From Verrucomicrobiota bacterium (GTDB lineage Bacteria > Verrucomicrobiota > Kiritimatiellia > Kiritimatiellales > Tichowtungiaceae): 21,346 nt of DNA. Location of the stretch: assembly GCA_020853375.1 (NCBI GenBank), contig JADYZA010000062.1, positions 1-21,346 on the forward strand. The letters are read 5' to 3'. The stretch's first letter is position 1; each line of letters starts with the position of its first letter. Below are positions 3,037 to 15,856 of this stretch, piece after piece. The notes beneath the pieces are model-generated. The model was not told the DNA's origin. It saw nothing but the letters and a program-made list of their open reading frames with translations, and made no database searches. The position numbers and the translations under genes are program-made.

Positions 3037-4353
3037 ATGGTACCACTTACAACGCTCATGACGATTTTGCAGATCACCTTTTTTAAAGTTGATGTCACTC
3101 CACCGATTGGAGCTCAGCTGGCGTATGTTGAAAATAAGAAAGTCGACACTCCGGTTTTCATCCGTGGCATCATACTAGATGACGGCTCGGCCAAAACGGT
3201 GATTGTATCCTGCGATTTCATACATATTTGGGGACAAGCATGGTTTGATTGGCGCAAGGCCGTCGCGGATGCCGCTGGGATATCTGAGGATCGTGTTTTT
3301 CTGCACTCCATTCATCAGCATGACAGCGTGCGCATTGCGCCTCAATGGAACGAGTTTGACCGGAAATTCGGGAAAGAGGCGGTCAGCGAGGACTATTGCC
3401 GAGAAACAAAGGATAAACTACGCCAGTCAGTGGCCTCTGCGGTTACTGGGGAATGGCACCGTGTTAGTAAACTAATGACGGCGGAGCACCGATTGAGTGG
3501 CCTTGCATCAAACCGTCGGATTCTCGATGAAAATGGCAAGTGGATCGCATCGCGTGTCAGCATGTGTAACGACCCGAAGCTGAACGATCTTCCCGTTGGA
3601 ACAATTGATCCTCTTTTGCGCACCATCGCCTTTGCCGGGGAAGACGGGAAAATAATTGCGGCGATGCATTTTTACGCATCACATCCGATGGCTGCTTACC
3701 GCCGGGAAATGGTCAGTCAAGATGTGCCGGGAGTGGCGCTGGAATATGCCAAAAAGGAATTTGGGAAAGATACGTTCAACATGTATTTGAATGGTTGCGG
3801 AGGCAACGTAACGTTCGGGAAATATCACCTGGGCGATAAGGAAAAAAGTCTTGAGTTGATGGGCGGGCGGCTTGGGAAAGGCATTGTGGCAAATCTTAAA
3901 AATTTAAATGAGAAACCAATAGGAAAGTTATCTTTTGCCAATGCTGAATTTAAAATTCCTCTTAATCCGGAGATTACCGAGGAGGCCATGTTGAAGCGTG
4001 CTGAAAGCGGGATCGACGGCAAACCCGACGTGAATGGAATTTTAAGGCTCATCATTTTTAGAAACTGGCGACAGTGGCAAACCTGCTCAATTTCCAGGCT
4101 AAGCCTTGGCGATCAAGTCCATATGCTTTCATTGCCGGGAGAAATGTGTGTGGAATATCAACTGTATGCGCAATCGCTTGTGCCTGAGCAGTTTTTAGCC
4201 TGTGCCGCCTACGGCAATCTGACATATGACTACATCCCAACGGCTAAAATGTTCGCTGAAGGCGGTTATGAGCCGAATGAAAGCATCACCACTCCGGAGA
4301 TTGAGGGCATCATGAAAAAAGCAATTTATGATGTGCTGAAGGATATAAAGTAA
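3037..4353 (+). CDS. Neutral/alkaline ceramidase-like hydrolase, paralogue A
   Basis: This 438-residue protein matches the N-terminal catalytic fold of neutral ceramidases, zinc amidases that cleave N-acyl sphingosines. Landmarks in order are FKVDVTPPIG near residue 16, HSIHQHD at 90-96, HFYASHP at 211-217 followed by SQDVPG, NGCGGNV at 252-258, LPGE with Glu369, and YDYIPT then GGYE at 397-412. By analogy with the bacterial enzyme, the zinc ligands would be a His of 90-95, His216, Glu369 and Tyr399. It is shorter than classical ceramidases (over 600 residues), lacks the C-terminal Ig-like domain and has no signal peptide, so it probably acts in the cytoplasm on an unknown substrate. The start at 3037 is set by GGAGG at 3027-3031. 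The gene is AT-richer than its neighbours. Superfamily membership is likely; ceramidase activity is unproven. Confidence 0.75.
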   Translation: MVPLTTLMTILQITFFKVDVTPPIGAQLAYVENKKVDTPVFIRGIILDDGSAKTVIVSCDFIHIWGQAWFDWRKAVADAAGISEDRVFLHSIHQHDSVRIAPQWNEFDRKFGKEAVSEDYCRETKDKLRQSVASAVTGEWHRVSKLMTAEHRLSGLASNRRILDENGKWIASRVSMCNDPKLNDLPVGTIDPLLRTIAFAGEDGKIIAAMHFYASHPMAAYRREMVSQDVPGVALEYAKKEFGKDTFNMYLNGCGGNVTFGKYHLGDKEKSLELMGGRLGKGIVANLKNLNEKPIGKLSFANAEFKIPLNPEITEEAMLKRAESGIDGKPDVNGILRLIIFRNWRQWQTCSISRLSLGDQVHMLSLPGEMCVEYQLYAQSLVPEQFLACAAYGNLTYDYIPTAKMFAEGGYEPNESITTPEIEGIMKKAIYDVLKDIK

Positions 4354-4424: not shown

Positions 4425-5741
4425 ATGATGTCAGTAAAAACGCTCATGGTTGTCTTGCAGATAGCCTTTTTCAAGGTCGAGGTTACTCCGCCAATTGGGG
4501 CTCAGATGGCGTATGGCGTGAATAAGAAAATTGATACCCCAATTTTCATTCGTGGCATAGTGATCGATGACGGATATTCCCGGACTGTTATTGCATCATG
4601 CGATTTCATCTATATCTGGGGCCAATCGTGGTTCGATTGGCGCAAGGCCATCGCAGATGCGGCAGGAACGTCAGAAGACCGTGTTTTTCTACACTCCATT
4701 CATCAGCATGACAGCATGCGTATTGCTCCTCAATGGAACGAGTTTTACCGGAAGTTCGGAAAAGAAGCTGTTAGCGAAGAGTATTGCCGAAAGACTATGG
4801 AAAAATTGCGCCAAGCAGTGACTGCCGCAGTTAACGGGAAGTGGCAAGGTGTCACCAGACTCATGACGGCAGAGAATAGATTGAGCGGACTGGCATCAAG
4901 CCGCCGGATTCTCGATGAAAATGGCAAGTGGATCGCGTCGCGTGTCAGCATGTGTAACGACCCGAAGCTGAACGACCTCCCTGTTGGAACAATTGATCCG
5001 CTTTTGCGCACCATCGCCTTTGCCGGGGAAGACGGGAAAATAATTGCGGCAATGCACTTTTACACAACGCATCCAATGGCTGCTTATCGTCGGGAAATGG
5101 TAAGCCAAGATGTTCCAGGGGTTGCGCTGGACTATGCTGAAAAGGAATTTGGAAAAGGTGTTTTCAATATGTATCTGACCGGTTGCGGCGGAGACATAAC
5201 ATTTGGGAAGTATTATCTAGGGGATAAGGAAAAAAGTCTCGAAGTTCTCGGGGGAAAGCTTGGAAAGGGCATCGTTTATAACCTCCAGAAAGCAGATGAA
5301 AAGCCGATGGGGAAACTATCTTTTTCAAGTGCTGAATTTGAGATCCCTTTGAATCCGGAGATTACAGAAGAAGCTATGTTGAAACGTGCCGAAAACGGTG
5401 TGGACGGCAACCCTGACTTAGGTGGAATATCGCGGCTGATTATTGTCAGAAACTGGCAAAAATGGAAAAAATGTTCAGTTTCCAGGCTTAGCATAGGCAC
5501 GGATGTTCACCTGTTATCATTGCCCTCAGAAGTATGTGTTGAATATCAGCTTTATGCTCAGTCTCTTGTCCCGGAGAAGTTTTTAGCCTGCGCAGCCTAC
5601 GGTAACGGCACCTACCATTACATTCCAACGGCTAAAATGTTTAGTGAGGGCGGTTATGAGCCAAATTCAAGTATTACCACCCCCGAAATTGAAAGCCGCC
5701 TGAAGCAGGCGATTTACACTGTGCTAAAGGATATAAAGTAA
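4425..5741 (+). CDS. Neutral/alkaline ceramidase-like hydrolase, paralogue B
   Basis: This is a second 438-residue copy, aligning to the upstream paralogue without gaps. All putative zinc ligands are kept: HSIHQHD at 90-96, His211/His216 in HFYTTHP, Glu369 and Tyr399. The loop before Glu369 reads LPSE instead of LPGE, and NGCGGNV becomes TGCGGDI, so substrate preference may have shifted. It has no signal peptide. GGAG at 4412-4415 supports a start at 4425, with ATG 4428 an equally spaced alternative. It lies 71 bp after copy A on the same strand, so the two are probably co-transcribed. Two intact active sites suggest a dimeric pair or specialised isozymes rather than a decaying duplicate. The real substrate cannot be told from sequence. 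Confidence 0.75.
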   Translation: MMSVKTLMVVLQIAFFKVEVTPPIGAQMAYGVNKKIDTPIFIRGIVIDDGYSRTVIASCDFIYIWGQSWFDWRKAIADAAGTSEDRVFLHSIHQHDSMRIAPQWNEFYRKFGKEAVSEEYCRKTMEKLRQAVTAAVNGKWQGVTRLMTAENRLSGLASSRRILDENGKWIASRVSMCNDPKLNDLPVGTIDPLLRTIAFAGEDGKIIAAMHFYTTHPMAAYRREMVSQDVPGVALDYAEKEFGKGVFNMYLTGCGGDITFGKYYLGDKEKSLEVLGGKLGKGIVYNLQKADEKPMGKLSFSSAEFEIPLNPEITEEAMLKRAENGVDGNPDLGGISRLIIVRNWQKWKKCSVSRLSIGTDVHLLSLPSEVCVEYQLYAQSLVPEKFLACAAYGNGTYHYIPTAKMFSEGGYEPNSSITTPEIESRLKQAIYTVLKDIK

Positions 5742-5934: not shown

Positions 5935-6567
5935 ATGTGGCTCTTCGGAACAGCAAAAAGCGTACTGGTGGTTGATACAGCCGCCGTACTGAAAACAAAA
6001 GGTGTGCGCGGACGTGCCGCGCCGCGTCAGCAACTCCAGATCCTGCGCGCACTATCCCGCTTCGTGCAGCGCGAGCAACTCAAAGTCACCGCCGTATTCG
6101 TTGGCGCCCCGCTTGAAAAAGCGCCGCACAACAAGGTCTTTGACGGAGTTCGCGTGCGTTACGCAAAAACGGAAGAACTGCTAAGCAAAGAACTTGGCAA
6201 AGCGCTCAAACAGGCCGGATCGAACGGCGTGCTTGTGACGGAAGATGTCGCGTTTGAAAACCGTGTGATCCGCTCCGGCGGCACCACACTGCGCGTTTCA
6301 ACATTCCGCAAACTGCTCGACGACGGCAATGAGCCGAACGAAGCCAACGGCGGAAACAGCGGCTACAACAACAACAACCGTCCGCCGCGCAACAACAATA
6401 ACAGCAATCGGCGTGACCGTGATCGCGGTCCGCGCCCGAACCGTGGTGCTGGACAGCCTTCTCAGCAACCGCGTCAGCGGCCTGCGGATGAAGAAGTTGA
6501 AGACGGTAACAATAACAACAACAGCGGTAGCGACGACATCAGCCAGATGATTGATCTGGTCGATTAA
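5935..6567 (+). CDS. NYN/YacP-like (PIN-fold) putative ribonuclease with disordered Asn/Arg-rich tail
   Basis: The 210-residue protein starts after AGGAAG at 5924-5929. Residues 8-128 resemble a YacP-type NYN domain: a strand ending in Asp14 (VLVVDTAAVL), a second strand TAVFVGAP at 52-59, then GVLVTEDVAFENRVIRSGG at 98-116 with Asp104. NYN/PIN proteins are metal-dependent RNases or RNA-binding proteins of the cytoplasm. The usual ETAD-type acidic cluster is not clear (KTEELLSKEL here), so catalysis is uncertain. Residues 131-200 are low-complexity Asn, Arg, Gly, Gln and Pro with several Asn runs encoded by AAC/AAT triplets, and the last ten residues form an acidic-hydrophobic tip (DISQMIDLVD). 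The basic, disordered tail fits RNA binding. A transcription terminator follows directly. Confidence 0.6.
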   Translation: MWLFGTAKSVLVVDTAAVLKTKGVRGRAAPRQQLQILRALSRFVQREQLKVTAVFVGAPLEKAPHNKVFDGVRVRYAKTEELLSKELGKALKQAGSNGVLVTEDVAFENRVIRSGGTTLRVSTFRKLLDDGNEPNEANGGNSGYNNNNRPPRNNNNSNRRDRDRGPRPNRGAGQPSQQPRQRPADEEVEDGNNNNNSGSDDISQMIDLVD

Positions 6568-7173: not shown

Positions 7174-7280
7174 TAAATCCTTCCCTATTGGTTGCACAGA
7201 ACCGACTCTAAGTTTAATACGTCCCAGATGGAATTCAAAATTGCCGGCGAGGTTAATGGTCGGTACATTCTTCTTGTCTT

Positions 7281-7308
7281 ACCAATAACTAATAACCAAT
7301 AACTAATA
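7281..7308 (+). repeat. Heptamer tandem repeat directly before gltX
   Basis: Four head-to-tail heptamers, ACCAATA and ACTAATA alternating twice, end 2 nt before the gltX ATG. They occupy the place where a ribosome binding site would be expected, and no purine-rich Shine-Dalgarno sequence is visible. Confidence 0.85.
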
Positions 7309-7310
7309 CC

Positions 7311-8615
7311 ATGACTATTCGCACTCGTTTCGCTCCCAGCCCGACCGGCCATGTCCATATCGGTAACATGCGCGCCGCGATTTTCAACTGGCTCTATGCC
7401 CGCCATACCGGCGGAGAGTTTCTGCTTCGCGTCGAAGACACCGACCGCGAACGCTCCACGCCCGAAGCCATCAAGACGCTTCTCGAAGCAATGGACTGGC
7501 TCGGACTGAATGTGGACGAAGCCCCGCTTTACCAGTCCACCCGGATGGACGCGCACCTCGCCGCCGCCGAAAGACTGCTGGCGACCGGTCATGCCTATAA
7601 AGAGGACAAGGGCGGAACCGGGCAGGGCGAATGCATCATTTTCAAAATGCCCGGCACCGACATCGAATTCACCGATTTAGTCAAAGGCACGCTCAAAAAA
7701 ACGGCCGCCGATATGGCCGACTTCGTGATCGTCCGCTCCAACGGAACGCCGGTTTTCCACCTCGCCAATGTACTCGACGATATTGAACAGAAAATCACCC
7801 ACGTTATCCGTGGCGACGACCACGTCGAAAACACCTTCCGGCACATCGCACTCTATAAAGCGCTCGGTGCGCCGGTTCCGGAATTCGCCCACCTCCCAAT
7901 GATTATCAACGCGCAGGGCAAACCCTATTCGAAGCGCGACGGCGACGCCTTTGTCGGCGACTTCCAAAGCAAAGGATTTTTTGGCGACGCGTTATTTAAC
8001 TATCTGGCGCTTCTCGGCTGGTCGCCCGGCGACGAACGGGAAGTGATGACGCGGCAGGAAATGATCGATGCGTTTGATCTGGTGACCGTCCGCTCATCGC
8101 CCGCTCAGATGGATTCGCGGAAACTGCTCTGGATGAACGGCGAATATATGCGCGCGATGAAACCGGCGGACTTTTCCGCGCTTTGCCGCAACGAGCTGTT
8201 CGCCGCAGGCGTGAAGCCAGGCTGTAGCGCCGATGCCGTGTTTGCGCTGATGCAGGAACGAACCAAACTGCCGTCGGAAATTGTTCCCGCCACCGCATTC
8301 TTTTTTAGCGACGATTTTGAATACGACCAGAAGGCCGTTGAGAAAAAACTGGCGAAGCCGGAGACTTTCCAGACCTTGGAAAAAATCGCCGGAATTCTCC
8401 AAACACTGGAAGCCTTCGACAGCGAAACCGTCAATAAAGCGTTGCACGACTTTGTTGAGCAGGGCGGGTTGAAATTCGGCGACGTTATGCCGCCGCTGCG
8501 TATTGCGGTTTCCGGTCAGCAGTCCGGCCCTGATCTAGCCCCAGTGCTGGCAATTCTTGGTAAAGAAACCGTTCTTGCCCGCATTCGCGGAACCATCGTC
8601 CGCTTCAACGTATAG
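7311..8615 (+). CDS. gltX: Glutamyl-tRNA synthetase, compact form
   Basis: This class I synthetase charges tRNA-Glu with glutamate in the cytoplasm. The HIGH-type signature is HVHIGN at residues 14-19 inside RFAPSPTGHVHIGN, and the KMSKS-type loop is KPYSKR at 204-209, followed by the conserved NYLALLGWSPGD. At 434 residues it is short (E. coli has 471). The missing part is the Cys-rich insert that normally follows the AY motif: here AYKEDKGG at 95-102 runs within about 12 residues into IIFKMPG, so the CxC...C zinc site is absent. The C-terminal anticodon-binding half looks complete. The ATG at 7311 is preceded by heptamer repeats and no Shine-Dalgarno sequence. A gltX identity is favoured over glnS because of the KR-type loop and the overall bacterial GluRS alignment. 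Confidence 0.93.
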   Translation: MTIRTRFAPSPTGHVHIGNMRAAIFNWLYARHTGGEFLLRVEDTDRERSTPEAIKTLLEAMDWLGLNVDEAPLYQSTRMDAHLAAAERLLATGHAYKEDKGGTGQGECIIFKMPGTDIEFTDLVKGTLKKTAADMADFVIVRSNGTPVFHLANVLDDIEQKITHVIRGDDHVENTFRHIALYKALGAPVPEFAHLPMIINAQGKPYSKRDGDAFVGDFQSKGFFGDALFNYLALLGWSPGDEREVMTRQEMIDAFDLVTVRSSPAQMDSRKLLWMNGEYMRAMKPADFSALCRNELFAAGVKPGCSADAVFALMQERTKLPSEIVPATAFFFSDDFEYDQKAVEKKLAKPETFQTLEKIAGILQTLEAFDSETVNKALHDFVEQGGLKFGDVMPPLRIAVSGQQSGPDLAPVLAILGKETVLARIRGTIVRFNV

Positions 8616-12858: not shown

Positions 12859-13865
12859 TCAGACACTTTTCCCTCAACCCAGAATAGAGGACGAGCCGCC
12901 TTTTCGCCCAGCACAAAAGGGAAGATACAGGAGATTTTACTCCGTACGCCGCCCACTTCTCCAATGGAGGTGATCGAAACATATTCCGGCGTAAGCGTGA
13001 AAAGGTTTGGCAGTTTCATGGCGGCTAGGTCTTTCGCGTCGATCCCGTCGTCGGCAGTGCCTTCTTTTCCATCCGGTCCGAGCCGCAACTCAAGAATTGC
13101 ATCAATCATTCCGTCGGAAATTTTCAGGCTGTTGAGTACGTTCGTTCCGGCGCTGTTTGGGTTGATCAGCCCGCTGCCCCACGTGGTGAGAAGATTCGCA
13201 ATGCCGGTGATGGGTTGATCCGTTTCTTTGCCGGGTGGTGTGCCGTAGAGAATTTCCGTCGTCCAGCCTTTGATCAGCAACAACTCATCCACCGTGTCGA
13301 TGGGCGCATTTTTACATTTATAGCCGCGCTTCCGGTAGAACGGATCGTCCGACTCCGCTCCGTTAAGGGTGTGAAGATCATCTTCATCCTGCCAGTCGTC
13401 CAGACAGTCGAGCAGGGTGTCCCATTCAGTGTTTGGAATACCGGCCTGTTCGAATAACAAACGCCATTCCTCGCGTTCCATTTTTTTAACGCACCGTTTG
13501 CCGTTTTCATAATCGATATGCAGCGTCACCGTGCCGTCGCCAAGATTTTCAGTGAAGTTCACCGGAAGCCCGGCGGCGATTTTGGCCGCCTCGTTCCGCC
13601 AGGGCTCGTCATAAACGATCTGTTCGCCGGGCATTTTTTTCTTATCCTCGAACGCGAGCATGAGTTTCGCCAGCTCGACACCTGCCAGCGCCAGCTGATC
13701 GGCTTTAAACCGTTTGCGTTGCAAGGTCATCATCTTCGCTTCCAGCTGCATCTCAAAGGCGAACATGCTGACAATCAGAGAAATGATGATGAGAATCCAC
13801 AGCACCACCACCAGCGCGCTGCCGCGCTTCATTTCGGATTTCTGATTACCGGTTGCCGATTGCAT
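12855..13865 (-). CDS. gspK: Type II secretion minor pseudopilin GspK
   Basis: GspK caps the pseudopilus tip with GspI and GspJ. The 336-residue length is much larger than other pseudopilins and typical of GspK. The N-terminal helix GSALVVVLWILIIISLIVSMFAFEM follows a short basic leader (MKRG) and lacks the usual Glu5, a known GspK trait. The segment LDDWQDEDDLHTLNGAESDD near the middle is the acidic, metal-binding type region of the family, followed by the helical TVDELLLIKGW. Two starts are possible: ATG 13865, which includes 11 residues encoded by heptamer repeats, or ATG 13832, giving the normal leader MKRG. Neither has a clear ribosome binding site; coupling from gspJ, ending 3 nt upstream of ATG 13865, favours the first. 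Confidence 0.9.
   Translation of the reverse strand: MQSATGNQKSEMKRGSALVVVLWILIIISLIVSMFAFEMQLEAKMMTLQRKRFKADQLALAGVELAKLMLAFEDKKKMPGEQIVYDEPWRNEAAKIAAGLPVNFTENLGDGTVTLHIDYENGKRCVKKMEREEWRLLFEQAGIPNTEWDTLLDCLDDWQDEDDLHTLNGAESDDPFYRKRGYKCKNAPIDTVDELLLIKGWTTEILYGTPPGKETDQPITGIANLLTTWGSGLINPNSAGTNVLNSLKISDGMIDAILELRLGPDGKEGTADDGIDAKDLAAMKLPNLFTLTPEYVSITSIGEVGGVRSKISCIFPFVLGEKAARPLFWVEGKVSE
13835..13862 (-). repeat. Degenerate heptamer repeat at the gspK start
   Basis: On the plus strand CGGATTT, CTGATTA, CCGGTTG and CCGATTG follow each other at exact 7-bp steps (consensus CNGATTN). The array lies between the two candidate start codons of gspK and is translated if ATG 13865 is used (residues SATGNQKS). 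Confidence 0.65.
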
Positions 13866-13868
13866 AAT

Positions 13869-14531
13869 TTACCGTGCTTCTGAAATGTTATTGGTGACGG
13901 GCGGGCCGAGTGGAATTTCGATGATCTGGCGGAACTTCACCGGTTCATCACCTTTTTTCGCAGGCTCAGTGTAGAGCGTAATTTCAACCAGACCGGGAAT
14001 GGCGTTGCTATATTCCCAAGTGTCTTTCCAGCCTTCCTCGCCTTGCTTGGTGTCGTACACTTTGCAGCTCAGTCCTTTGATGTTTTCGCTGACAAACCAG
14101 CTCTTCTTTTCCACCGTTTCTTCATCGGCAAGATAGGGCCATGCCTTGACGACCAGCCCTTCGATCCCATCGTCATTCTCACCGGCGCCAACTTGAACTC
14201 GGTGCAGGCCGTGAGAGAAAATATCTTCGCCCGGAGGAATAAACGCGCTGCTGGCCGTTACCCAGCTGATGGTGTGTTCGCCTTCGCCAGCGGAATTATT
14301 TTCAATCCGGAATCCACATTGTTCCTGTGAGTTCGTCAGCATCACCATCGACCGTAGAGCGGATGACAGTTGGCCCAGCACGAAATCGCCGTGATGCATC
14401 CGGTCCATCACGACCCGCGCGCCGCTCCACGAGCGTGTCACCGTCGAGAACAGTTGTCCGGCCACCGTCATGGCGATCGCAAGGATCACGACGGCGATCA
14501 TCACTTCAAGTAATGTGAAGCCGCGTTTCAA
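13869..14531 (-). CDS. gspJ: Type II secretion minor pseudopilin GspJ
   Basis: This 220-residue pseudopilin belongs to the tip complex with GspI and GspK. After the leader comes G-FTLLEVMIAVVILAIAMTVAG, a type III signal cleaved and N-methylated by the prepilin peptidase, with Glu5 present. The rest is the beta-rich domain (KGLSCKVYDTKQGEEGW). I place the start at TTG 14531: it has AGGAGGAG 2 nt upstream, gives the standard leader MKRG, and overlaps the gspI stop by 4 nt (TTGA), matching the other junctions of this operon. A longer TTG start at 14561 would overlap gspI by 34 nt with no advantage. Size and place between gspI and gspK support GspJ. Confidence 0.88.
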   Translation of the reverse strand: MKRGFTLLEVMIAVVILAIAMTVAGQLFSTVTRSWSGARVVMDRMHHGDFVLGQLSSALRSMVMLTNSQEQCGFRIENNSAGEGEHTISWVTASSAFIPPGEDIFSHGLHRVQVGAGENDDGIEGLVVKAWPYLADEETVEKKSWFVSENIKGLSCKVYDTKQGEEGWKDTWEYSNAIPGLVEITLYTEPAKKGDEPVKFRQIIEIPLGPPVTNNISEAR

Positions 14532-14929
14532 GGCTCCTCCTGTTGCGGGATATACCGCCAAACGGTGACTTCCTCAAAACTTTCGCGTCCGCGGTCTGAC
14601 CAGCTTACGCGGGTGCGGACGGTGTAAAGCCCTTTGCGGTATTCATCTTCCGGTTCGATAATTTCACGTTCCCAGCGATATCCTTTTTCATCACCAAAGG
14701 TTCCTGATTGAATTTCCGTATCAAGTTTTTCGCGGGGTAACGGGTTTTCCGCTTCGACCTGCTGAATGAGCCGCTGCGCGGTGCCGTAGCGTTGTGATTT
14801 GGAGATGATGGCCAGACAGCGCGCCGTCGCCAGCAAAAGTACGCCGGAGCCAATGCCGAGAATCACCACGGCCAGTAGGACTTCGATCAGTGTCAGTCCT
14901 TTTTTCCAATGGTTGGAATTTTTGTTCAC
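14528..14929 (-). CDS. gspI: Type II secretion minor pseudopilin GspI
   Basis: The 133-residue protein has leader MNKNSNHWKKG followed by LTLIEVLLAVVILGIGSGVL, a class III prepilin helix with Glu5, then a compact beta domain (YTVRTRVSWSDRGRESFEEV). The start is a GTG at 14929, fixed by a 4-nt overlap with the gspH stop (GTGA). In T2SS, GspI nucleates the tip complex with J and K. Its length and position in the H-I-J-K order support the call; sequence alone would not separate it from other minor pseudopilins. A TTCCAA-N3-TTGGAA palindrome lies inside the leader codons. Confidence 0.85.
   Translation of the reverse strand: MNKNSNHWKKGLTLIEVLLAVVILGIGSGVLLLATARCLAIISKSQRYGTAQRLIQQVEAENPLPREKLDTEIQSGTFGDEKGYRWEREIIEPEDEYRKGLYTVRTRVSWSDRGRESFEEVTVWRYIPQQEEP
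14904..14918. repeat. TTCCAA-TGG-TTGGAA palindrome in the gspI leader
   Basis: Perfect 6-bp arms around a 3-nt loop, embedded in the codons for SNHWK of the prepilin leader. It belongs to the same small family as 17393-17409. Confidence 0.55.
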
Positions 14930-15447
14930 CGTCCGGCCTCCGCGACGGTTGTTTTTCCGGAGATTGGATTGCAGATGACGGTTGAGTGCCGGTCGTCGCC
15001 TGCGCTGAATGTCACTTTGAATCCGTCGTTCATCCCGGCGGCGTAGAAATTAACGTTGTTGGTTTCGCCTGCGCTCACTTTTGAATCGGCAAGATTTTCG
15101 AACGAGCTGATTTTGATGTCCTCCGGCAGCTTACGGGAAGCTTCCGGACTGGCAACATTAGTTCCGCGCAGAAGAACCATTCGATTTTTCTCAAAGCGGA
15201 GTGTGCAGGTTTCCTGCTGGAGAATCGAAAGACTGCGGGCGTAGCGCGCCATCCGGACTGTGGAGCGAACGGCATCCGTCATCTGAGTGGATTTAAAGGT
15301 ACCCTTGAATTTCGGAATAACCACACCGGCGGCAATCAGGGTGATTACAACCACCAGCATCACCTCAATCAACGTGAACCCACGGGCGAAAGATGAAGTA
15401 TGAAAGATGAAGTATGAAAGAGGTTTTTTCATTTTTTCTGAATTCAT
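14926..15447 (-). CDS. gspH: Type II secretion minor pseudopilin GspH with repeat-expanded leader
   Basis: The 173-residue protein carries the prepilin motif G-FTLIEVMLVVVITLIAAGVV (cleavage after Gly23) and a C-terminal GspH/FimT-type domain (VRMARYARSLSILQQETCTL). GspH sits below the tip complex in the pseudopilus. Its leader is 23 residues, against about 6-10 in its neighbours; the extra part (PLSYFIFHTSSFA) is encoded by heptamer repeats. ATG 15447 is the first start after an in-frame TGA; ATG 15432, giving MKKPLSY, is an alternative. No close ribosome binding site is seen; AGGAAGAGAAGG lies about 25 nt upstream. The gap to gspG is 31 nt. Confidence 0.85.
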   Translation of the reverse strand: MNSEKMKKPLSYFIFHTSSFARGFTLIEVMLVVVITLIAAGVVIPKFKGTFKSTQMTDAVRSTVRMARYARSLSILQQETCTLRFEKNRMVLLRGTNVASPEASRKLPEDIKISSFENLADSKVSAGETNNVNFYAAGMNDGFKVTFSAGDDRHSTVICNPISGKTTVAEAGR

Positions 15448-15469
15448 CTTTCATCGTTCATAATTCATC
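15391..15469 (-). repeat. Facing heptamer arrays forming an inverted repeat around the gspH start
   Basis: On the plus strand AGATGAA and GTATGAA alternate twice at 15391-15418, and ATTCATC, TTTCATC, GTTCATA, ATTCATC follow at 15442-15469. The arms 15392-15418 and 15443-15469 are complementary at 23 of 27 positions around a 24-nt loop. In the mRNA the gspH ATG 15447 lies in one arm and ATG 15432 in the loop. Confidence 0.85.
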
Positions 15470-15478
15470 CTTCTCTTC

Positions 15479-15856
15479 CTATTCCCAGTTATTGAATTCT
15501 TTGCCTTCCGGTGACTTGCATGACAGGTCGAAGCCGATACCGTGAGAGCCGGGTTTTGCAAAAATAAATGGCTGTTTCCAAGGATCGTTCAGTTCGCTCG
15601 GTTTAATGTACGGGCCATTGCCGTCTTTTTGGACGGTGAGGTCGTTCAGGCTGTCGGGCAGACGAAGGTTATCCATTTCAAAACTTTGAATGGCGGCTTC
15701 AATGGATTTCAGGCTGGCTTTGGCGGCGACATCGTTGGCTTTGCCAACCTTGCCCGTGATCTTCGGAACAGCGATGCCGACGATGATGCCGATAATGACG
15801 ATCACGAGCATGATTTCGATCAGGGTGAAACCACCTTTGGATTTACGATTTTTCAT
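15479..15856 (-). CDS. gspG: Type II secretion major pseudopilin GspG
   Basis: The 125-residue major pseudopilin polymerises into the periplasmic piston. Leader MKNRKSKGG precedes FTLIEIMLVIVIIGIIVGIAVPKI, the canonical helix with Glu5 and the Pro kink, followed by AKASLKSIEAAIQSFEMDNLRLPDSLNDL and the C-terminal PYIKPSELNDPW...GIGFDLSC block typical of GspG. AAGGAGA about 6 nt upstream fixes ATG 15856; this is the strongest ribosome binding site of the pseudopilin genes, consistent with high demand for the major subunit. It lies 18 nt after gspF. Confidence 0.95.
   Translation of the reverse strand: MKNRKSKGGFTLIEIMLVIVIIGIIVGIAVPKITGKVGKANDVAAKASLKSIEAAIQSFEMDNLRLPDSLNDLTVQKDGNGPYIKPSELNDPWKQPFIFAKPGSHGIGFDLSCKSPEGKEFNNWE
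15836..15856 (-). repeat. Short heptamer-like run at the gspG start
   Basis: TTTGGAT, TTACGAT and TTTTCAT (plus strand) occur at 7-bp steps, the last containing the gspG ATG. It encodes the leader residues MKNRKSK. With three degenerate units, chance cannot be ruled out, but the site matches the other arrays in being at a start codon. Confidence 0.4.

Follow-up and report, generated by a model that had tools for sequence, protein, structure and literature searches.

Unrelated repeat-built hairpins recur in the leaders of gspH, gspI and gspJ and are absent at gspG across related genomes

Introduction

Between gspG and gspH lies a hairpin built from two opposing arrays of seven-base repeats, and it encloses the candidate start codons of gspH, raising the question of whether the structure controls this one gene or belongs to something more general. 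A preliminary description of the locus had proposed that it masks gspH initiation, or acts as a thermometer-like or processing element between gspG and the minor pseudopilins. Heptamers are a common class of bacterial repeats, including before start codons (PMC4679880, PMC4692102 and PMC6749651). We analysed the window (the whole stretch of DNA under study, 21,346 nucleotides) alongside more distant relatives and a genus sample of 14 genomes, labelled G000 to G013, of which G000 is the window's own; genes were called with a purpose-built caller. At the gspH leader position, most relatives in the sample have hairpins of other, unrelated sequence, and what was supposed to be a single regulator becomes a testable general pattern, in which minor pseudopilins may be a gene class whose discarded leader serves as a landing site for palindromic repeats. 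With filled and compact sites and several unrelated hairpins in one operon, the locus offers a natural experiment for testing whether operons recruit mobile repeats as dosage elements.

The operon and its hairpin

On the minus strand of the window, Pfam matches give the gene order gspF (T2SSF), gspG (T2SSG), three prepilin ORFs and gspK (T2SSK); the three prepilin ORFs match the N-methylation motif alone, and their names gspH, gspI and gspJ come from gene order. The gene for the major pseudopilin, gspG (15479..15856), has a leader junction without an inverted repeat. Behind it lies the gspH-like ORF (14926..15447), named from that place, with an expected G^F cleavage at about 15379/15378. The gspI-like prepilin gene (14528..14929) and the gspJ-like one (13869..14561, its listed ORF start uncertain and its called start a TTG three codons before the prepilin motif) follow across compact junctions of 26 nt and 5 nt, both without a hairpin, and a single, unpaired CAATCNN-type heptamer array (13829..13866, minus strand) encodes the GspK leader. 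In general GspG is needed in larger amount than GspH, and the residues before the G^FTLIE cleavage site should be removed by prepilin peptidase and so be missing from the mature protein.

The hairpin between gspG and gspH is real. Its two inverted 27-nt arms (15392-15418 and 15443-15469) form 23 Watson-Crick matches across a 24-nt loop (15419-15442), which bears out the arm and loop geometry first described, and the best inverted repeat extends the arms to 15388-15418 and 15443-15473, with 26 of 31 positions complementary and one G-T pair. In the mRNA, repeat and fold together place the 5' arm (15443..15473, minus strand), an NNATGAA heptamer array, immediately behind gspG, and the 3' arm (15388..15418, minus strand), a TTCATNN heptamer array, in frame with gspH ahead of G^FTLIEV, where it would be translated in the GspH leader (..SYFIFHTSSF..). 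Because this leader should be cleaved off by prepilin peptidase, the mature pseudopilin would be untouched by the repeat. The loop contains an in-frame ATG at 15432-15430 (MKKP..) and the stem another at 15447-15445, so one candidate gspH start does lie in the stem and the other in the loop, as had been stated; a third in-frame ATG at 15468-15466, after the purine-rich GGAAGAGAAGG, opens only an in-frame minicistron of 5 codons plus stop within the 5' arm (15451..15468, minus strand, with its TGA at 15453).

Scored in 153-nt windows at steps of 50, this hairpin has the top score of the 21 kb window (18.5), and the maxima of 20 dinucleotide shuffles of the whole window were at most 13.5. The predicted minus-strand (mRNA-sense) fold of 116 nt reaches -32.2 kcal/mol (z -4.18, equalled by 0 of 200 shuffles), and a plus-strand fold of 141 nt has a z of -3.23 (equalled by 1 of 200). 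The stem predicted for the minus strand is A/T-rich; in it the ATGAA and TTCAT pentamers are paired and most variable two-base spacers form internal loops. An Rfam search of the hairpin returned no match above gathering score; 11 of the 12 sub-threshold matches were microRNA hairpins, and the best of the 12 reached 27 bits (E 0.0076) with cut-offs of 60-135 bits.

A dispersed palindromic repeat

Judged from its sequence, the hairpin is a single copy of a palindromic repeat that is dispersed in the genome and in which two inverted NNATGAA arrays surround a short middle. The array pattern RNATGAANNATGAANNATGAA has 25 matches in the window's own genome (14 in forward and 11 in reverse orientation, grouped in 18 arrays on 13 contigs), where the reversed control pattern has none; it matches in 13 of the 14 genus genomes and in 21 of 43 order genomes, a count that takes in the genus, with the control pattern matching once each in two genomes outside the genus. 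All 16 distinct close array pairs, taken from the loci collected with duplicates removed by loop sequence, run ATGAA-first and none TTCAT-first, so the polarity of the element is fixed. Nine copies (L310-L318, from 5 genomes) share a core of 46-47 nt, GGGTCTGCGAC...GAGTTCC, flanked by ATGAA and TTCAT arrays, and the window copy has a different, shorter middle. This core with its flanking arrays may be a structured RNA or a small mobile element in its own right. At L230 and L233, TTCAT-type array pairs with a closely similar middle lie upstream of a gene that is apparently shared by G008 and G013, which makes some copies look old and stable.

The NNATGAA type is one of many repeat-unit families that occur in these genomes. 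When eight periods were tried, period 7 yielded more arrays than any other in all three genomes sampled, the G000 contigs in this sample having mostly been chosen for holding arrays, and period-7 arrays were intergenic in 19 of 23 cases in the G000 sample, 6 of 12 in G007 and 4 of 11 in G009. A strict genome-wide detector found arrays paired in 6/12 cases in gsp operons, 14/40 between genes and 2/13 within genes, a count that does not discriminate and for which the G000 sample was partly picked for arrays. Genes for Y1-type transposases (PF01797) were present in all 14 genus genomes, with two or more in 12 of them and 3 in G000.

The same junctions in related genomes

At the gspG-gspH junction the 14 genomes hold several unrelated repeat families, assigned by eye: TTCATNN arrays in G000, G002 and G010; CAATCNN arrays in G007, G013, G006 and G001; GGAATNNT octamers in G004, G012 and G003 and, in decayed form, in G009; and GAA..TTC-type repeats in G008 and G011, leaving G005 with no array. 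The window's own hairpin sequence was seen by eye in G002 and, by family, also in G010 among the 13 relatives. The families at the gspH, gspI and gspJ leaders are likewise unrelated to one another. Besides arrays, the gspI and gspJ leaders hold GTAG-tagged pairs (G004, G006) and TTTTTCCAA..TTGGAAAAA-type palindromes (G009 among them). The GTAG pair GTAGACGAGGCTTCCAGCCTCG.. fills the gspI leader of G004 and G006, recurs genome-wide with a spacing of about 54 nt, and has a match in 10 of the 14 genus genomes.

We took the best inverted-repeat score in the 153-nt window ending at the prepilin motif as a common measure, with cut-offs of 9 and 11 that were set after a first look at the data. A score of at least 9 was reached at 0/14 gspG, 12/14 gspH, 11/14 gspI and 8/13 gspJ junctions (31/41 for gspH to gspJ), and a score of at least 11 at 0, 10, 7 and 6 junctions, respectively. 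Against shuffles, p was at most 0.05 at 0 gspG, 12 gspH, 9 gspI and 8 gspJ junctions; among the 31 hairpins, those not significant were gspI of G002 (p 0.11) and gspI of G009 (p 0.09). When the region was instead bounded by the preceding stop codon and the motif, p was at most 0.01 at 0/13 gspG, 11/14 gspH, 8/14 gspI, 6/13 gspJ and 3/9 gspK junctions. Scores of at least 9 were likewise found at 3 of 9 gspK junctions, a sample that covers 9 of the 14 genomes and includes some positions taken from a loose motif. Period-7 arrays were detected at 5 of the 14 gspG junctions, and an inverted pair at none. RNA-fold z-scores at the gspH junctions were modest (median -1.67). G002 has Ns in gspG and gspH, and gspJ and gspK were not found on the gsp contig of G012, whose gspJ is likely on another contig (L300).

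Spacer lengths mostly separate filled from compact sites. Junctions with a hairpin measure 86-162 nt, except for one of 269 nt in G002, whose gspG is interrupted by Ns, and 7 of the 10 hairpin-free gspH, gspI and gspJ junctions are compact (gspH 57 nt in G005; gspI 26 nt in G000 and G005; gspJ 5 nt in G000 and G005 and 11 nt in G003 and G009); the other three are long without a hairpin (G002 gspJ, 86 nt; G012 gspI, 233 nt; G009 gspH, 88 nt). The reading frame is kept across this range, with gspJ spacer lengths equal to 2 mod 3 in 13/13 and gspI spacers in frame in 12/14. The repeats are thus likely to be in-frame insertions in the leader. On a tree of GspF to GspJ, with 14 rows and types assigned by eye, we counted a minimum of 9 switches of repeat type at gspH and likewise at gspJ, and the count of 12 at gspI is an overcount arising from two placeholder labels. 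G000, G007 and G004, which group together at 92% support with their branching unresolved, each have a different family at gspH.

Other prepilin genes and other spacers

Other genes with a prepilin motif in the same genomes, taken from regions around PF07963 matches with five of the listed single PF07963 places left out, scored at least 9 in 10/106 cases and at least 11 in 6. Leaving out L300, apparently gspJ of G012 by its motif, gives 9/105 against 31/41 at gspH to gspJ (Fisher p 3e-15), a test that treats junctions as independent while the gspH, gspI and gspJ counts of one genome are not. A narrow-filter search of the initially collected regions had found no other prepilins there. Among prepilin genes that follow another prepilin gene, 6/40 scored at least 9, four of these being terminator-like by eye. 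At six loci (L267, L282, L286, L289, L293 and L297) we observed a late gene of another minor-pilin operon with a long leader and a single unpaired heptamer array, mostly of the GTCAGAG/GTCAGGA type.

Among co-directional spacers of 60-200 nt outside the gsp operons, 49/184 scored at least 9 and 28 at least 11, with the background windows anchored on the start codon and the gsp windows on the prepilin motif; this background rate is raised because the G008 and G013 regions were partly chosen for arrays and because terminators are included. With any spacer length, five samples gave a fraction of 0.09-0.17 for co-directional junctions at 9 or above, and a sixth, made up of gsp regions, gave 0.30.

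Known repeats and operon hairpins

In E. coli, protective hairpins at operon boundaries lie behind the gene whose product is required in excess, and frequently within the ORF that follows (PMC5927463). The gsp hairpin resembles this malE-malF type, as described there, in standing without a U tract behind the gene needed more and in reaching into the next ORF, and several hairpins per operon are known in that system too (menBCE). A stable hairpin without a U tract is what the predicted fold gives between gspG and gspH. Unlike the malE-malF type, the gsp hairpins are built from different dispersed repeats in close relatives.

Rickettsia palindromic elements are inserted in frame into protein genes and translated (PMC10969869). 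We found the same arrangement here, palindromic repeats in frame with and translated as part of the host ORF, but the gsp repeats sit in leaders that should be cleaved off and are tandem short-unit arrays or REP pairs rather than one family. Many of the TAACTGA heptamers of Beggiatoaceae lie just upstream of start codons, with one inverted case among 170 sets (PMC4679880). Like these, the gsp repeats have 7-nt units, here NNATGAA rather than TAACTGA, arranged head-to-tail and dispersed in the genome; theirs are direct copies of one fixed heptamer, and the gsp units are degenerate, form inverted pairs and belong to several families. The preliminary description knew of no case of heptamers in such a role; heptamers beside start codons have been described, there as direct repeats with that single inverted case. 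GTAG REPs are present in the PVC group (PMC3733652). The tagged pair at the gspI leader of G004 and G006 is of this kind, and the PF01797 genes found in every genus genome are putative RAYT transposase genes, but the window element is made of tandem heptamers and shows no GTAG tag at its arm ends (15388-15473). Among open-licence papers we came across none that describes repeat hairpins in the leaders of pseudopilins, their lack at gspG, or heptamers in Kiritimatiellota.

Maintenance of the hairpins

We suggest that the hairpin is a dispersed palindromic repeat residing in the cleaved gspH leader and kept since it lowers minor-pseudopilin output, an account that we regard as evenly poised between right and wrong. 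Unrelated palindromic repeats would have filled the gspH, gspI and gspJ leaders again and again; the 3' half of the repeat would be translated as the GspH leader and then removed by prepilin peptidase; and within what is presumably a single message, an RNA hairpin behind gspG probably reduces how much of the minor pseudopilins is made and may, like the malE-malF hairpin, shield the gspG message. That the hairpin is useful is favoured by the contrast between gspG and gspH to gspJ, by the contrast with other minor prepilins, and by unrelated repeats giving the same structure in the same place; the more open ribosome-binding stretch predicted at gspG than at gspH to gspJ also speaks for this account. 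Recurrent unrelated hairpins at gspH to gspJ and none at gspG are consistent with a processing element, as had been proposed between gspG and the minor pseudopilins, or with a dosage element. Counter to this explanation, the window genome itself has no hairpin at gspI and gspJ.

The strongest competitor, to which we give a considerable chance short of even, is that repeats simply survive harmlessly in the leaders of low-abundance pseudopilins, that the hairpin is useless, and that gspG is spared since a hairpin would hurt a highly expressed gene. Neutral persistence of this kind is consistent with the dispersal of the elements in the genome, with the transposase genes of all 14 genomes (as a matter of presence only), and with the high turnover of repeat types at gspH and gspJ. 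It also accords with G005, which has no hairpin at gspH to gspJ, and with G009, which has at most a weak one (gspI 9.0, p 0.09), both of which suggest that the hairpin is dispensable. Exact pairing shows no sign of being maintained, as the spacer dinucleotides of paired arms are not more complementary than shuffled ones (0.30 against 0.37, 48 pairs). Predicted ribosome-binding accessibility at gspI and gspJ is the same with a hairpin (0.39, n=19) as without (0.38, n=8), and the difference of these genes from gspG therefore cannot be put down to hairpins, so we rejected the hairpin as the cause of lower gspI and gspJ start accessibility. Against neutral persistence stand the prepilin genes that follow another prepilin gene, whose leaders are also cleavable and hold single arrays, and which have inverted pairs in just the 6 of 40 cases given above; the other spacers of 60-200 nt, too, fall well below gspH to gspJ. 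Tolerance of the leader alone as a cause is weakened in the same way, by other prepilin genes where inverted pairs are rare. On this evidence we place selection on dosage slightly ahead of neutral survival in the leader.

Distribution beyond the genus

In a second family of the order, tested at 16 loci of the 24 order-mates with a match, the gspH junction scored at least 9 in 8/16 cases (at least 11 in 4) and the gspG junction in 0/16, so that 0 of the 30 gspG junctions examined (14 from the genus and 16 from the second family) carried a hairpin. The best 80 of 208 relatives listed were mostly Kiritimatiellota, Verrucomicrobiota and Omnitrophota, and hairpin-like arrays were seen before prepilin-motif genes in other Kiritimatiellota, in Verrucomicrobiota and in one Omnitrophota (L126, L132, L136, L160, L163 and L176). 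Across this wider sample, 46/265 motif sites scored at least 9, a set that pools genes of different types, includes a few loci from already counted genomes and leaves out L116-L118 and L195. Inverted 7-, 8- and 9-mer arrays precede pseudopilin-like genes in some records outside the genus; at L136 we observed inverted nonamer arrays of the ACAGGATTA type before such a gene, so units longer than 7 or 8 occur as well.

A broader form of dosage selection would hold that the operon selects a hairpin and not a sequence, with 7-mer arrays, 8-mer arrays and REP pairs recruited and replaced while GspG stays high and GspH to GspJ low, and that the practice extends beyond the genus. The translated but discarded prepilin leader would then be the landing pad that enables palindromes to be recruited. 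We offer this reading tentatively, and with more doubt than belief.

Start codons, temperature and termination

A regulator specific to gspH, in which the hairpin hides the gspH start until it is opened by temperature or a bound factor, is very unlikely. In its favour, the fold is strong on the minus strand, and for both window ATGs, the one in the stem and the one in the loop, the predicted unpaired probability at 37 C stays below one half (0.46 and 0.36). Inspection by eye puts an in-frame ATG in the loop of 10 of the 12 gspH hairpins, with that of G012 in the 5' arm and that of G002 unclear because of Ns; called starts fall in the loop in 7 of the 12, in the 5' arm in 3 and upstream in 1, with 1 uncalled, and the hairpin-free gspH of G005 likewise received no called start. 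In the 16 nt ahead of the called start, predicted accessibility is lower at gspH (mean unpaired 0.45, n=12), gspI (0.39, n=14) and gspJ (0.37, n=13) than at gspG (0.60, n=14; p 7e-5), as it is in the start codons themselves (0.57 at gspG against 0.41, 0.41 and 0.30 at gspH, gspI and gspJ; p 0.02).

Masking of starts nevertheless fails as a common theme, and was rejected as such, because in 17/19 gspI and gspJ cases the entire hairpin comes after the called start; the proposal of gspH start masking keeps the loop ATGs in its favour. The sequence of the window hairpin, common to G002 and by family to G010 alone among the 13 relatives by eye, also argues against a regulator of gspH, and so does temperature: from 10 to 55 C the predicted unpaired probability moves from 0.38 to 0.47 for the stem ATG and from 0.33 to 0.51 for the loop ATG. 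With so flat a predicted response we rejected an RNA thermometer, and the thermometer-like behaviour raised in the preliminary description finds no backing in the folds. A stable structure between gspG and the minor pseudopilins stands from that description; its specificity for gspH does not, the arms being a dispersed repeat.

Least probable of all, and very unlikely, is that the junction of gspG and gspH holds a transcription terminator or attenuator. The stem does come directly after the gspG stop codon, but it is A/T-rich, and the minus strand shows no U tract after the 3' arm (GCCCGTGGG..). A terminator scan had no entry at the hairpin, but it takes loops of 3-8 nt and is blind to a 24-nt loop.

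Other features of the window

We observed a different heptamer array (ACCAATAACTAATA x2, 7281-7308) at 7275-7314, whose end is separated by two bases from an ATG at 7311; the ORF with this ATG presumably encodes a protein resembling glutamyl-tRNA synthetase. Two adjacent ORFs of 438 aa (3037-4353 and 4425-5741) have near-parallel translations and are apparently a tandem duplication, and a further ORF at 5935-6567 has an asparagine/arginine-rich low-complexity tail.
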